Assembly: GCF_016904885.1 (NCBI RefSeq) | Contig: NZ_JADWYI010000001.1 | Span: 1,674,001-1,738,000 of the forward strand | Length of the DNA: 64,000 nucleotides | Source of the DNA: Archangium primigenium | GTDB taxonomy: Bacteria; Myxococcota; Myxococcia; Myxococcales; Myxococcaceae | Direction: 5' to 3' | Shown: piece after piece, positions 57,782-63,633 of the stretch | Position numbering within the stretch: position 1 is the first letter of the stretch | Layout of the letters: each line of letters opens with the position of its first letter | The notes under the pieces: generated by a model | Database searches by the model: none | Told to the model about the DNA's origin: nothing | The model's input: the letters and a program-made list of their open reading frames with translations, nothing else | Program-made: the position numbers and the translations under genes

Positions 57782-57957
57782 CGCGGAGGGCGGCGGACTG
57801 CGACCCGCCCCCACGTTGTCCGCCTGTTCGGCAGGAATTCCTGGAATGGCGGGTTGTCGAAGGTAGGAGTCTCCCCGGGGGCGATGGGGCCCTCGGGGGC
57901 ACGTTCCTAGGTTGGCTTCACCGTCACTTGAGACGGGCCCCAACAAGGACTGCCCCC

Positions 57958-58158
57958 ATGAGCGAGAACTCCTCCCGCAAGCTCCGTCTGAACAAGAACA
58001 CCGTGCGCACGCTCTCCGAGGACAGCCTGGATCAGGTGGCCGGCGGCAACGGAGATTCGGCCGGCATCATCTGCGTGTTCTCCGTGCTCATCATCTGCGG
58101 CGACTCCATCATCTGCTCGGTGGCCGCGGGCTTCTGTGACAGCGAGAACGGCGACTAG
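57958..58158 (+). CDS. RiPP precursor peptide with double-Gly leader
   Basis: A 66-residue peptide: leader KLRLNKNTVRTLSEDSLDQV then AGG (Gly29-Gly30), the 'K-L-x-L-x-K-x-T-...-L-S-...-L-x-x-V-x-G-G' consensus of lanthipeptide-like and other leader peptides, and a core with Cys39, Cys47, Cys53, Cys60 in hydrophobic IIC repeats (AGIICVFSVLIICGD, IICSVAAGFCDSE). AAGGA lies eight bases upstream of ATG 57958. A B12-dependent radical SAM enzyme lies 0.9 kb downstream. No LanB/LanM or protease-exporter is in the window, so maturation would be by the radical SAM protein or an enzyme elsewhere. Confidence 0.78.
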   Translation: MSENSSRKLRLNKNTVRTLSEDSLDQVAGGNGDSAGIICVFSVLIICGDSIICSVAAGFCDSENGD

Positions 58159-58164
58159 GCGCGC

Positions 58165-58626
58165 TCAGCGCGGTGGGGCCTCGCCGTCCAGGTCGAAGCT
58201 CCGCCGCAGCCGTCGGGTGGCCTCGTCGAGGCCGGCCGCCGCGAGCCGGTCGGCGGCCCACGCCACGCCGGCGCGCAGGGTGGTGACGTTGATGGTCGGG
58301 TAGGGCAGGGCGGCGTGCTGGTACACGGACGCGCTCTTGAGCAGGAGGATGTCCGGCGCGACGATGACGCTCGCGGTCCCCAGGAAGGTGCGCGCCAGCC
58401 GCTCCCGGTGCCGGGACACCCACTCGCTCTGCAATTGACGGTACTCGGCCGGCGGCAGCTTCATGTGCGTGGCATCCGAGATGCCCACGTGCACCTCGTC
58501 GCGCTCCAGGTACGCGGTCCTCCGCACGAAGAACTCCCGGCACTGCTCCAGGGAAGGGCTGCCCACGAAGTGCAGGATGAGCAGCGGCCAGTGCGTGTCG
58601 TCCAGCGTGATGGAGGCGGAGGTCAT
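58165..58626 (-). CDS. Conserved hypothetical protein of the RiPP region
   Basis: A 153-residue soluble protein: LLILHFVGSPSLEQCREFFV, HVGISDATHMKLPPAEYRQL, SVIVAPDILLLKSASVYQHA. The mix of beta and alpha resembles STAS/SpoIIAA-like modules but no residue proves it. It is downstream of the 56-residue ORF on the same strand (82-base gap) and convergent with the precursor gene. Confidence 0.6.
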   Translation of the reverse strand: MTSASITLDDTHWPLLILHFVGSPSLEQCREFFVRRTAYLERDEVHVGISDATHMKLPPAEYRQLQSEWVSRHRERLARTFLGTASVIVAPDILLLKSASVYQHAALPYPTINVTTLRAGVAWAADRLAAAGLDEATRRLRRSFDLDGEAPPR

Positions 58627-58708
58627 GGTCCAGGCGAGGGCCCGCCTCTCGGCTCGGGAGAGACGGGGCCCTGGGGCGGGGGCTCCGGGGCCACCGCGTG
58701 TCCATCGC

Positions 58709-58879
58709 TCAGATGAAGATCTCGTGCCAGCGGTCGGATGGAGTCGTGTCGGTCCTGCGCGCGTCCTCGCGCTGGAGCTTGAGCGGCTTGTGCGCGACGG
58801 CGGGCGTCGACGGCGGGGGCAGGGGAATCAGGGAGAGAGGGGACGGAGAGGCGGGGGGAGTCTCGGTCAACTCGTTCAT
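58709..58879 (-). CDS. 56-residue ORF, candidate second peptide gene
   Basis: Encodes MNELTETPPASPSPLSLIPL (first 20 residues), a Pro-rich middle and a charged C-terminus ending SDRWHEIFI. A strong Shine-Dalgarno (AGGAAG, six bases before ATG 58879) supports translation. It sits back-to-back with the radical SAM gene. It could be a precursor, recognition protein or spurious; no signal peptide or double-Gly motif. Confidence 0.5.
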   Translation of the reverse strand: MNELTETPPASPSPLSLIPLPPPSTPAVAHKPLKLQREDARRTDTTPSDRWHEIFI

Positions 58880-59041
58880 GACGGTCTTCCTGGCGCCACG
58901 AGTTCCGGCAGGGGGGGGCCGTGCCTCGCTGTGGCACCACGCGCTACGATAGCGCTCCTGACAGGGACGGCTCAATGAGGGGCGGGTGGTTCACGCTGGA
59001 TCCCCGCGTGACCGTGTGTCGGGGTTGCCGGAGTGTGTGTC

Positions 59042-60913
59042 ATGCATGACAGACGGGTCGTTCTGGTCTCGATGCCCTGGGCCTTCCTGGAGATGCCCTC
59101 GATCGCGCTGGGGTTGTTGTCGAGCGTGCTCCAGCGCGGAGGCATCGTGCCGGTGGCGCGGTCCTTCAACCTGACCTTCATGGAGTGGTTGCGGCGCCAC
59201 CTGACCGGGCCCGGCGAGGCGTTGAGCCTGCTGGACTACCGGGCCATCTCCAGCGCGGCGTCCGCGGGGTTGGGCGACTGGCTCTTCTCCGTGCCGCCCT
59301 TCCGCGCGTCCGCGCCCGAGGAGGACGCGCGCTACCTCGCGCGGCTGGCGCGCGACGAGGTGCTGCCCGCGCGGCTGCTGGGCCGGCTGGAGGCGGTGCG
59401 CGCGCAGGTGCCCGCCTTCATCGACGCGTGCGTGGAGGAGCTGCTCGGCCATGCGCCCGCGCTGGTGGGGTTCAGCACGACGTTCAACCAGAACGTGCCC
59501 TCGCTGCTGCTCGCGCGGCGGCTCAAGGAGCGCGCCCCGCACGTGCGGGTGGTGTTCGGCGGGGCCAACTGCGACGGCCCCATGGGCCAGGGGCTCCTGG
59601 ACGCCTTCGACTGCGTGGACGTGGTGGTGCAGGGCGAGGCGGAGGCGCTCATCGTGGAGCTGGTGGAGGACCTTCTCGCCGGGCGGCCGCTCCCGCCCCG
59701 GCGGGGAGTGCTCGCGCGGGGCGTCGCCGTGCCGGAGGGCGAGGCGCCCCGGGTGCGCATGGACGACGTGCCCGTGCCGGACTACGGCTTCTTCTTCGAG
59801 GAGCTCTCGCGCACGGGCTTTCGCCAGGAGCTGGTGCCCGACGTGAAGCTGCCGGTGGAGACGGCGCGCGGGTGCTGGTGGGGGCAGAAGCAGCACTGCA
59901 CGTTCTGCGGGCTCAACGGCTCGAGCATGGCGTTTCGCAGCAAGTCGGTGGAGCGGGCGCTGCGCGACTTCGAGGAGCTGTCGGCGCGCCACCGGTGGCT
60001 GGACTTCGTCGCCGTGGACAACATCATCGACCTGGGCTACCTGCGCGAGCTGCTGCCGCGGCTGGAGGAGCGGGGGTTGGACCTGCGCGTCTTCTACGAG
60101 ACGAAGGCGAACCTCACGCGCCAGCAGGTGCGGGACATGCGCGCCGCGGGCATCCACCGCATCCAGCCCGGCATCGAGAGCCTGTCCACGCCCATCCTCA
60201 AGCTCATGCGCAAGGGCGTGGCGGCGTGGCAGAACGTGCGGCTGCTCAAGTGGTGCGCGCAGTACGACGTGCGCGTGAGCTGGAACATCCTCTACGGCTT
60301 TCCCCAGGAGCCCGAGGCGGAGTATCCGCGCATGGCCGCGTCGCTCGGCGCGCTCAGTCACCTGGAGCCGCCGCGCCTGTCGCGCCTGCACGTGCAGCGC
60401 TTCAGCCCCTACCACCAGAGCCCCGAGCGCTTCGGGCTGCGGCTGGAGGGGCCGCTCTTCCACTACCCGCATGTATACCCGCAGCGGGGCGAGCAGCTCG
60501 CGGCGCTCGCGTACGACTTCGAGTACGCGCACGTGGACGGGCGCGACCCCGAGGCCTACGTGGGGGGCTTGCGGCGGGCGGTGGAGCACTGGGGCCAGGT
60601 GCACGCGCGGGACCGGGGTCGGCTCACCTGGCGGCGGGGGCCCGGGTTCGTGCGCATCGTGGATGAGCGCGCGGCGGTGGGCTACGCGAGCTACCTCTTG
60701 GAGGGCCCCCAGGCGGAGGCGTGGCTCGCCTGCGAGGAGGGCGCGAGCGCGGCCCAGGTGCACCGCGCGCTGAACGAGCGGGGGCACACCGGGCTGGGGG
60801 AGGCGGACGTCGCGTCGTTCCTCGGCGAGCTCGCCGAGGCGGGCCTGGTCTACGAGGCGGACCAGCGCTTCGTGTCCCTGGCCCTGCGCGAGCGCCCGGA
60901 AGTGCCGGGCTAG
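59042..60913 (+). CDS. B12-binding radical SAM RiPP maturase (rSAM C-methyltransferase-like)
   Basis: A 623-residue enzyme. N-terminal cobalamin-binding-type domain (LVGFSTTFNQNVPSLLLARR, VVFGGANCDGPMGQGL, VVQGEAEALIV), then the radical SAM cluster motif at C278, C286 and C289 in ETARGCWWGQKQHCTFCGLN, GSSMAFRSK, and a TIM-barrel ending in RiPP-maturation C-terminal sequence. This string is characteristic of the RiPP maturation radical SAM C-methyltransferase family (TIGR03975-like). ATG 59042 with GGAG eight bases upstream. Probable methylation of unactivated carbon in a peptide core; the precursor at 57958 is the nearest substrate candidate. Stop overlaps the convergent DUF4424 gene. Confidence 0.88.
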   Translation: MHDRRVVLVSMPWAFLEMPSIALGLLSSVLQRGGIVPVARSFNLTFMEWLRRHLTGPGEALSLLDYRAISSAASAGLGDWLFSVPPFRASAPEEDARYLARLARDEVLPARLLGRLEAVRAQVPAFIDACVEELLGHAPALVGFSTTFNQNVPSLLLARRLKERAPHVRVVFGGANCDGPMGQGLLDAFDCVDVVVQGEAEALIVELVEDLLAGRPLPPRRGVLARGVAVPEGEAPRVRMDDVPVPDYGFFFEELSRTGFRQELVPDVKLPVETARGCWWGQKQHCTFCGLNGSSMAFRSKSVERALRDFEELSARHRWLDFVAVDNIIDLGYLRELLPRLEERGLDLRVFYETKANLTRQQVRDMRAAGIHRIQPGIESLSTPILKLMRKGVAAWQNVRLLKWCAQYDVRVSWNILYGFPQEPEAEYPRMAASLGALSHLEPPRLSRLHVQRFSPYHQSPERFGLRLEGPLFHYPHVYPQRGEQLAALAYDFEYAHVDGRDPEAYVGGLRRAVEHWGQVHARDRGRLTWRRGPGFVRIVDERAAVGYASYLLEGPQAEAWLACEEGASAAQVHRALNERGHTGLGEADVASFLGELAEAGLVYEADQRFVSLALRERPEVPG

Positions 60914-61785
60914 CGGCGGAAGAAGATGACGTCCAGGTCCCGGTCCGGCCGGTAGTTCTTCTGGGTCATCTCGAAGCGCGTGGGGCTCGTCTTCCGCATG
61001 CCGCGCATGCAGTAGGAGAGGATGGCCTGGGGGTTGGGCTTCTCCACGGTGAGGTGGAACAGCCCGATGGGCCCCACCCAGTTGTTGCCGGTGACGAGCG
61101 TGAAGGACAGCCAGTGCACCTCGGGCCCCTGGAAGAAGCCCACGGGGATGTAGGGCGAGGGCCGCAGGGAGCGGTCCAGGGTGCTCGTGGTGTCGGTGTC
61201 CACGCAGAAGCGCTGGCGCATGCGCGGGTGGCGGTAGGTGTCCTGGCTCCAGCCCTTTTCCGAGCTGAGCGAGGGCCGGTAGGTGATGTCCACGCTCAGG
61301 CGCTCGCCCGGGGGGAACACTTGATCCCACACCTCCGAGCGCTGCAGGCTCGCGCCCACGTCCGCGGCGCTCTTGCCCCGCCGGCGCTTCTCCTCCGCCA
61401 GGCGCTGGTCCACCTGGGTCCGGTCCCGGTACTCCTGCCCCTGGAGCCAATAGACGGTCTCGGTGCGGGTGCCCTGGCGCTTGCCGGCCACCGAGAGCCG
61501 GAAGTCGGACACCTCGGACACCGGCACGCCCGGCAGCAGGTCCATGTGGGGGAAGGGGAAGGCGACGCGGGCCTCGATGGGCTGGGTCGTCGGATTCTCG
61601 AAGGTGTAGTGGATGCGGATGCGGTCCACCGTGACGTGGATGAACTGCTCGGCCACGCGGATGTTCGCGGGCATGAGCAGCTTGAGGCCCTCGTTGGAAT
61701 AGCCCACCGTCGGAGTCCGGGCGGCGGCGGGTCCGGCATGCAGACAGACGAGCAGCAACGGCAGCAGCGCGATGTGTGGCTTCAC
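60910..61785 (-). CDS. DUF4424-family exported protein
   Basis: A 291-residue secreted protein: signal peptide (ALLPLLLVCLHAGPAAA) and a beta-rich body with HYTFENPTTQPIEARVAFPF, MDLLPGVPVSEVSDFRL and VFPPGERLSVDITYRPSL, typical of DUF4424. GTG 61785 is chosen because the signal peptide begins there and GGGGGGAAG precedes it. Divergent from the riboswitch operon. Function unknown. Confidence 0.8.
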   Translation of the reverse strand: MKPHIALLPLLLVCLHAGPAAARTPTVGYSNEGLKLLMPANIRVAEQFIHVTVDRIRIHYTFENPTTQPIEARVAFPFPHMDLLPGVPVSEVSDFRLSVAGKRQGTRTETVYWLQGQEYRDRTQVDQRLAEEKRRRGKSAADVGASLQRSEVWDQVFPPGERLSVDITYRPSLSSEKGWSQDTYRHPRMRQRFCVDTDTTSTLDRSLRPSPYIPVGFFQGPEVHWLSFTLVTGNNWVGPIGLFHLTVEKPNPQAILSYCMRGMRKTSPTRFEMTQKNYRPDRDLDVIFFRR

Positions 61786-61868
61786 GGTCTTCCCCCCAGC
61801 GACAAGCGACCGGGCAATATAGCGACGCGGGCGCGCGTGCTCGCCCGCGACTGGCGGACAGGCGCGTG

Positions 61869-61897
61869 TTGACAACAGGAGCCTCGCCGCCATATCC
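61869..61897 (+). promoter_or_regulatory. Promoter for the riboswitch operon
   Basis: Perfect -35 TTGACA at 61869-61874 and an imperfect CATATC/ATATCC -10 at about 61891-61897, spacing 16-17, just upstream of the cobalamin riboswitch. Confidence 0.5.
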
Positions 61898-61910
61898 CGC
61901 CCTCGTCCTT

Positions 61911-62095
61911 GGTTCCTCCATGGCGTCATGGGGGTTTGAGGGAACCCGGTGCGAGTCCGGGACTGCCCCGCAGCGGTGAACGGGAACGACCGCCGTCAGA
62001 TGCACTGGTGCTCATCGCGAGCGCCGGGAAGCGACGGCCACTAGGAGGAAGGGGCTTGCCTCTTCCGCGCCCGTGAGTCCGAAGACCTACCTGGG
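61911..62095 (+). ncRNA. Cobalamin riboswitch
   Basis: The conserved core is clear: GGGAACCCGGTGCGAGTCC at 61940 onward, then GCCCCGCAGCGGTGA, TGCACTGG, CGGGAAG, and the B12 box GAGTCCGAAGACCTACC (62075-62091). It lies on the plus strand upstream of the lipoprotein gene. Bound adenosylcobalamin normally reduces expression of the genes below. Its ends are approximate. Confidence 0.93.
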
Positions 62096-62097
62096 AT

Positions 62098-62118
62098 CCG
62101 TGCCGCCACGTGGCACGG
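62098..62118 (+). terminator. Hairpin directly after the B12 box, candidate expression platform
   Basis: CCGTGCC, loop GCCACGT, GGCACGG: a perfect 7-bp stem seven bases after the riboswitch B12 box. No T-run follows, so it may act on antitermination/translation or with Rho rather than as a classical terminator. Confidence 0.4.
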
Positions 62119-62256: not shown

Positions 62257-63633
62257 ATGATGAAGGACATGAGGAAGTCGGGAGTGCTGGGCTGGATGCC
62301 GTGGGCCGTGGGTGCGGCGTTGATGAGCCTGCTGGCCTCGGGCTGCGCACCGGAGTGCGAGACCGCGTACGACTGCGCGCAGAAGAACGGGCCGCTGTCC
62401 GGCCAGCGCTACGTCTGCGAGGCCGAGCAGTGCGTGGTGCGTGACATCACCCCGCCCGAGCCCGTGCCGGACGCGGGGACGCCGGACTCGGGAACCCCGG
62501 ATTCGGGGACGCCGGACTCCGGAACCCCGGATTCCGGAACGCCCGACTCGGGCACGCCGGACGCCGGACCGCCGGAGGTCGTGCTCCCGGCGCCGGATCC
62601 CGCGCCGGACACGGGGGTCGACTGCGCCCAGGCGCCGCATGACACGAAGCTCGGCACGCTGAGGCTGGAGGCGGGCTTCTCCGCCACCGAGTCCGCGCCG
62701 CTGCCCGCGGGCATTGGCGCCGTCGTCGCCCTGACGGACTCGGCCACGCCCGCCGTGTACGGCCTCAACGGGGCGGACGCGAGCCTCTACGCGCTCGGCA
62801 CCTGGCCCGCGCTCGCCTCGAGCACCACCCTGCTCGTGTCGGTCATCTCCCCGGAGGACAAGGGGAAGACCACGTACCTGGGCGGCTACATCGCCAGCGA
62901 TGGCCAGCGGCTGATGACGGGCTATACGCGGCCAGACGTCTCGGGCGCCGTGGCGCTGCATGACACCCTCCGGGCGGGCTCCGCCTCGTTCTTCTCCGCC
63001 CGGGGCAACTACTCCGCCGTGGGCACGAAGGACGTGTTCCTCATCAACGGCTTCGGGCTGGAGGGCTCGGGGTTCGACGACGCCATCGGCGTCTACGGGT
63101 TCACGACGGGCGAGGTGACCTTCCGGGGCTGGAAGCTGGCCACGTTCCCGGCCAACGCCGAGTACAGCGGCTACAACGCCCGGACGAGCACGGACATCGC
63201 CGTGTTCGGCTACGCCCAGGGCACGCCCACCTCGGACAACCCCTACGCCACCAGCAACTTCCTGCACGCGGTGGCCCCGTCCACCTGGCGCGCGGCGGTC
63301 GACTCGCTCGGGACGCTGGACCTGAGCCGGACGAACACGCCCCTGGTCTACAAGGCGCTGGACGTGCTCGACGTGTCGGGCTTCGGCGAGGGCGTGGCCA
63401 TCCGCCGCGGCTTCTACGATGGCGCGGACTACTCCTCGCTCACCCGCTCCCTGGTCTACCTGCCCCTGTCGGCCTCGGGCGAGAGCGCCTCGTGGGGCGC
63501 GTCGAGGAAGGTGCTCACCGCCTCCGACACGTGCACCCGCGTGCTCCTCCAGGCCCCGCTGGCGGGAGACCTGCTCGTGGGCGTGTCCGACAAGAACGGC
63601 CGCAGGCTCGTGCGCCTGCACGCGACGCCATGA
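62257..63633 (+). CDS. Riboswitch-controlled lipoprotein
   Basis: A 458-residue lipoprotein: signal peptide with lipobox LLASGC, a short Cys-containing segment (CETAYDCAQKN, CEAEQC), a (TPDSG) linker, and a beta-propeller-like body (IGAVVALTDSATPAVYGLNG). ATG 62257 with GAGGAG seven bases upstream. The riboswitch ties it to cobalamin, so it is probably part of corrinoid capture. Overlaps the next start (ATGA). Confidence 0.78.
   Translation: MMKDMRKSGVLGWMPWAVGAALMSLLASGCAPECETAYDCAQKNGPLSGQRYVCEAEQCVVRDITPPEPVPDAGTPDSGTPDSGTPDSGTPDSGTPDSGTPDAGPPEVVLPAPDPAPDTGVDCAQAPHDTKLGTLRLEAGFSATESAPLPAGIGAVVALTDSATPAVYGLNGADASLYALGTWPALASSTTLLVSVISPEDKGKTTYLGGYIASDGQRLMTGYTRPDVSGAVALHDTLRAGSASFFSARGNYSAVGTKDVFLINGFGLEGSGFDDAIGVYGFTTGEVTFRGWKLATFPANAEYSGYNARTSTDIAVFGYAQGTPTSDNPYATSNFLHAVAPSTWRAAVDSLGTLDLSRTNTPLVYKALDVLDVSGFGEGVAIRRGFYDGADYSSLTRSLVYLPLSASGESASWGASRKVLTASDTCTRVLLQAPLAGDLLVGVSDKNGRRLVRLHATP
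62479..62568 (+). repeat. 15-bp tandem repeats encoding TPDSG
   Basis: Six units of 15 bp, encoding five TPDSG and one TPDAG, with alternate units differing at synonymous sites, so a 30-bp higher-order repeat is visible. A flexible lipoprotein linker prone to length change. Confidence 0.85.

Follow-up and report, generated by a model that had tools for sequence, protein, structure and literature searches.

We analysed a stretch of 64,000 nucleotides, called the window below, which covers positions 1,674,001-1,738,000 in the 9.49-Mb genome of Archangium primigenium. It carries a short precursor gene with an inverted repeat upstream and a gene for a B12-binding radical SAM enzyme (Table 1). An earlier note on this DNA had described a RiPP locus made up of a precursor and its maturase. 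Both genes proved to be real, but 884 bp and two minus-strand genes separate them, and they therefore do not form an operon. The precursor gene is convergent with the first of these, 7 bp from that gene's stop. The 153-aa product of this gene gave no profile match to a known protein family, and its paralog family, which reaches as many as 15 matches in one genome, was rejected as a pathway marker.

Table 1. Features of the precursor and radical SAM region (positions within the window)
Feature	Position	Strand	Remarks
Inverted repeat CCGTC-N6-GACGG, putative operator or 5'UTR hairpin	57921..57936	+	21 bp before precursor start codon; common to dispersed paralogs
Class I lanthipeptide precursor (LanA), 66 aa	57958..58158	+	NF038153 match; six paralogs in genome
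Precursor leader, 30 aa, LxLxKx5L motif, VAGG end	57958..58047	+	motif as in PMC7268733
Precursor core peptide NGDSAGIICVFSVLIICGDSIICSVAAGFCDSENGD, four-fold Ser/Cys alternation	58048..58155	+	
153-aa protein, large myxobacterial paralog family	58165..58626	-	9 matches in this genome; specific to neither neighbour
56-aa Pro-rich ORF, possible alternative precursor	58709..58879	-	divergent from radical SAM gene
B12-binding radical SAM enzyme, TIGR03975 (RiPP maturation radical SAM C-methyltransferase), 623 aa	59042..60913	+	
C-terminal winged-helix RRE-like domain, putative leader-binding	60614..60877	+	best structural match TbiB1 with bound leader, Z 9.3

The precursor peptide and its leader

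The precursor consists of the leader MSENSSRKLRLNKNTVRTLSEDSLDQVAGG followed by the core NGDSAGIICVFSVLIICGDSIICSVAAGFCDSENGD. The earlier description of a 66-residue peptide with a VAGG leader end and four Cys was confirmed, with three of the four Cys in IIC units. The curated leader model for class I lanthipeptides (NF038153, L1a) matched the peptide at 29.1 bits, above its cut-off of 22 bits, and the leader (LRLNKNTVRTL...VAGG) fits the LxLxKx5L motif and ends in GG. In Bacteroidetes, class I LanAs have been reported to carry leaders of the LxLxKx5L/Gly-Gly type, in many cases together with C39 proteases (PMC7268733). The match and the six paralogs in the same genome indicate that the reading frame is more than a chance one. 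The earlier reading as a RiPP precursor with a double-glycine leader was right. Judged from its sequence, 57958-58158 encodes a class I LANTHIPEPTIDE precursor whose leader type is already known.

A dispersed family with one linked set of modification genes

We found seven members of the precursor family in the genome, distributed over four loci: two at 1.338 Mb, the window copy at 1.732 Mb, three at 2.889-2.890 Mb and one at 8.154 Mb. The six others are 58-72% identical to the window copy. Maturation genes adjoin the 8.154-Mb copy (at 8,154,293) only, and comprise a C39 peptidase-ABC exporter, a LanC (PF05147, with the WCYG and CHG zinc-site motifs) and a LanB (PF04738, 549 bits; PF14028, 235 bits). 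The window locus has no LanB or LanC, and no RiPP-like genes were seen near the 1.338- and 2.889-Mb copies when their neighbours were judged by eye. A syntenic precursor-exporter-LanC-LanB cluster is present in the congener G001, and G038, from another genus, has precursor, LanC and LanB. The earlier note had stated that a precursor family found with LanB would refute its reading; LanB and LanC are encoded with this family at the 8.15-Mb paralog and in these two relatives, though not beside the window copy. No relatives of the core were confirmed in named GTDB genomes.

Every one of the nine cores (9/9) has four alternating Ser/Thr-Cys pairs and no more than one or two Ser beyond these. The window core, in which the four conserved Ser/Thr alternate with as many conserved Cys, should be able to form lanthionines, and the arrangement would fit four non-overlapping rings, each running from a Ser to the next Cys. 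The four Cys of the window precursor are best explained as lanthionine partners of its four alternating Ser. The core varies less than the leader in nearly all pairs of copies (pN 0.04-0.19 vs 0.00-0.35), and the dN/dS of the core between copies is 0.09-0.35. At the sequence level, the cores are under purifying selection and the copies are functional. For the window copy, decay into an unexpressed duplicate is a very unlikely reading. Its leader is among the most diverged of the copies, but its frame is open, all leader and Ser/Cys positions are kept, the dN/dS of the core is about 0.3 and the upstream element is exact.

This upstream element, CCGTC-N6-GACGG, was found exactly or with one mismatch in 6/7 copies, 20-23 bp before the start codon; the seventh copy has diverged. 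G001 carries the exact repeat at the matching position. On its own the repeat is not unusual (0.37 copies expected per window; the window holds one exact copy, the 57921..57936 element). The telling feature is its position before the start codon. The pattern CCGTCAN5GACGG with an ATG 15-26 bases further on was found four times genome-wide, three times before these precursors, including that of the window, and the reversed control gave 0 matches. No element of this type precedes the radical SAM gene. The repeat probably co-regulates the scattered precursor copies, as its recurrent placement suggests.

We consider it probable, although well short of certain, that the window gene encodes an orphan class I lanthipeptide precursor on which the distant LanB and LanC act in trans, and that the radical SAM enzyme is separate. 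The LanB, LanC and C39 exporter, 6.4 Mb away in contig coordinates, would bind the LxLxKx5L leader in trans. The core Ser would be dehydrated to dehydroalanine, and four thioether (lanthionine) rings would then be closed, most economically by joining each Ser to the Cys that follows it (Ser4-Cys9, Ser12-Cys17, Ser20-Cys23 and Ser24-Cys30). The exporter would cleave after the GG and secrete the product. The radical SAM enzyme would be a separate B12-dependent RiPP enzyme that probably has another substrate, possibly the 56-aa ORF, and that may also tailor the window peptide.

A second LanB stands solitary at 3.76 Mb (L104:5566-8778), and a second LanC lies with an L1a-leader precursor and a C39 exporter, without LanB, at 6.18 Mb (L106:8684-14672). 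The lone LanB and the LanB-less LanC locus apparently make up a class I lanthipeptide pathway that is split.

The radical SAM enzyme and its possible substrates

The window enzyme, the only TIGR03975 member in the genome, scored 609 bits against a cut-off of 282 and contains CWWGQKQHCTFCGLN, which bears out its earlier assignment to the B12 radical SAM C-methyltransferase family. All of 31 sequences share the cluster cysteines C278, C286 and C289. The B12 match in Pfam falls slightly below the cut-off (29.8 vs 32.1 bits), and the B12 domain is covered by the fold match: the structure model (pLDDT 92) matches the B12 radical SAM enzymes OxsB, TsrM, TokK and CysS. By these matches the product of 59042-60913 is a genuine enzyme of a peptide-modifying family, with predicted C-methyltransferase activity. 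In the literature, the identifier TIGR03975 turned up as a single mention in each of two papers.

When folded alone, the C-terminal domain forms a winged helix (pLDDT 93.5). Its best matches were complexes of the RiPP recognition domain TbiB1 with its leader, at Z-scores of 9.3 (2.2 A over 79 residues) and 9.1, but the Foldseek E-value was 0.04 and generic winged helices came next at Z 8 and below. The model indicates that the enzyme probably binds a leader peptide by its own domain; with such a domain apparent, it probably modifies some leader peptide.

In a tree with wide sampling, the window enzyme forms a clade with enzymes of Acidobacteria and Planctomycetota (L137-L140; support 100/99). 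L1a-linked enzymes with DUF5825 are part of the sister clade (support 91/98); the grouping of the window enzyme with L1a-linked enzymes in the first tree was overturned by the wider sampling. Neither a precursor with an L1a-type leader nor a conserved neighbour was found near L137-L140, and when the 80 TIGR03975 loci closest to it in named genomes were scanned with a profile of these leaders, none had a convincing match nearby. In Myxococcaceae, three related enzymes (G067, G065 and G052) do adjoin L1a-type leaders, two of the three scoring below the NF038153 cut-off. Their cores, TTPTITTVTVTVVFVPSEAH, LASSVEVSVGVGVGPVEVSVGVGISV and TVRVTIEISISADAQ, are without Cys. One of these three L1a-TIGR03975 loci has a LanB, and one has HlyD and a C39 exporter. 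DUF5825 is fused in the L1a-linked enzymes and is absent from the window enzyme.

The earlier note did not recognise the pairing of leader and enzyme and suggested that product and enzyme action may be new. The leader is of a known class I type, and the same pairing, with Cys-free cores, occurs at the three Myxococcaceae loci, so that it is rare and not unique. On precursor/maturase co-occurrence, the check proposed earlier, six of the seven paralogs lack such a radical SAM gene nearby, and the three Myxococcaceae loci pair the leader and enzyme families.

At the three Myxococcaceae loci (L059:19168-19723, L062:11581-11742 and L063:8412-8772), precursors with L1a leaders and Cys-free, Thr/Val/Ile/Ser-rich alternating cores adjoin a TIGR03975-DUF5825 fusion, in one case together with LanB. 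Their products may be C-methylated dehydrated peptides. Beside another TIGR03975 gene (L073:11235-11669) we observed a nitrile-hydratase-like leader peptide with a VNAAANVNAAANANSVANANSVV tail, which is reminiscent of proteusins. Pro-rich repeat ORFs with PEVVMEVGPRRP units are found near TIGR03975 genes of other myxobacteria (L114:13205-14002 and L129:298-540).

The adjacency of the window precursor to the sole TIGR03975 gene of the genome would arise by chance in about 0.1-0.2% of placements, and adjacency to any of the 20 radical SAM genes in about 4%. This improbability counts against in-trans modification with a separate radical SAM enzyme, as do the absence of LanB and LanC from the locus and the pairing of the sister clade with L1a leaders. 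The enzyme also has an RRE-like domain, yet no other convincing leader peptide lies nearby.

An alternative is a combined pathway, in which the radical SAM enzyme binds the window leader by its RRE-like domain and C-methylates Ile, Val or Leu of the core before or after LanB and LanC act in trans. One copy of a scattered in-trans family would then have been captured by an RRE-bearing B12 methyltransferase, and a C-methylated lanthipeptide would come from the window locus only. The improbable chance adjacency, the RRE-like domain, the three related Myxococcaceae enzymes directly adjoining L1a-leader precursors and the richness of the window core in branched residues all point this way. However, a pair of antisense genes separates precursor and enzyme gene, no enzyme of this kind lies near the six paralogs, whose cores are almost the same, and the nearest kin of the enzyme lack such precursors. 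Moreover, the upstream element of the precursor is common to the LanBC-linked copy and not to the radical SAM gene, and the DUF5825 of the L1a-linked enzymes is missing here. We regard this combined pathway as unlikely, though a serious candidate.

Maturation by the radical SAM enzyme alone, giving a thioether, epimer or methyl product without LanB and LanC, seems extremely improbable. It is the sole RiPP enzyme gene adjoining the precursor, but the precursor family, the leader, the Ser/Cys stoichiometry and the linkage of the paralog all favour LanB and LanC, and the enzyme matches no SPASM radical SAM family. Maturases that form thioethers usually belong to the SPASM radical SAM enzymes.

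The substrate could instead be the 56-aa ORF, with the lanthipeptide copy an unrelated neighbour. This concerns the enzyme only and is compatible with the preferred in-trans modification of the precursor. Its start codon lies 163 bp from that of the divergent radical SAM gene, behind a plausible Shine-Dalgarno sequence (AGGAAG). However, it has no leader motif, and no relatives were found in 116 genomes apart from one chance antisense match. Its resemblance to short actinobacterial TIGR03975 peptides of 28 aa (MEIKKxVVREDQRSTTRRPAILEKRPTR) was not significant (265 of 2000 shuffles) and was rejected. We think it rather doubtful that this ORF is the substrate.

A conserved 27-28-aa peptide of the MEIKKIVVREDQRSTTRRPAILEKRPTR type lies directly upstream of TIGR03975 genes in actinobacteria (L174, L183, L189, L192, L202, L209, L210 and L216) and is a very short candidate RiPP precursor. 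At L174, a DUF5825-like gene lies directly downstream of the TIGR03975 gene.

On the other side of the radical SAM gene, a DUF4424 protein (60913-61929, minus strand) adjoins it. This neighbour has a paralog at 7.30 Mb in the same genome and is absent from the 29 relatives searched (0/29), and insertion-site synteny by means of it was set aside. A complete cobalamin riboswitch (RF00174, 90.8 bits; 61893-62108, plus strand) precedes a gene at about 62257-63633 whose predicted product is lipoprotein-like and has PDSGT repeats, and not the B12 radical SAM gene.

Comparison with known systems

More interesting than the pairing is a scattered, core-conserved and apparently co-regulated class I family that is probably served by one linked LanB/LanC set. 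If modification occurs in trans, cluster-based genome mining would assign the wrong enzyme to the window precursor. The common upstream repeat makes co-regulation directly testable. No report of scattered class I precursors in myxobacteria was found in the mainly open-access literature searched.

The window precursor shares with the class I LxLxKx5L/GG lanthipeptides (PMC7268733; NF038153) the leader motif, the GG end, the C39 exporter and, by a near-identical paralog, LanB and LanC. Unlike in those systems, seven paralogs are spread over four loci of a myxobacterium, only one of them beside LanB and LanC, and conservation is higher in the core than in the leader.

Prochlorosins and synechococsins are class II lanthipeptides whose scattered precursor genes are served in trans by few enzymes (ProcM/SyncM), and in prochlorosins the leader is conserved and the core variable (PMC10783134). 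The window family is alike in its scattered precursors and proposed in-trans modification by few enzymes. However, prochlorosins have LanM, Nif11 leaders and variable cores, whereas here we find LanB/LanC, an L1a leader and nearly invariant cores. On these sequence features the family would work like a prochlorosin-type system without being a member, having neither LanM nor Nif11 leaders. It looks like the class I equivalent of such scattered in-trans lanthipeptide systems, but with conservation in the core instead of the leader, and this suggests one product from several promoters or gene doses, not a combinatorial library.

The window enzyme belongs to the same curated family as other TIGR03975 enzymes, with B12 and radical SAM domains and a fold like that of OxsB, TsrM, TokK and CysS, and its own clade in Acidobacteria and Planctomycetota has no recognisable precursor nearby. 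If it does act on the window copy, the product would be a B12 C-methylated lanthipeptide. The closest parallel in gene arrangement is offered by the TIGR03975-DUF5825 loci (L059, L062 and L063), where the same leader family adjoins the same enzyme family. Unlike the window locus, these have Thr/Val/Ile/Ser-rich, Cys-free cores, and their enzymes are 38-40% identical to that of the window and carry the extra DUF5825.
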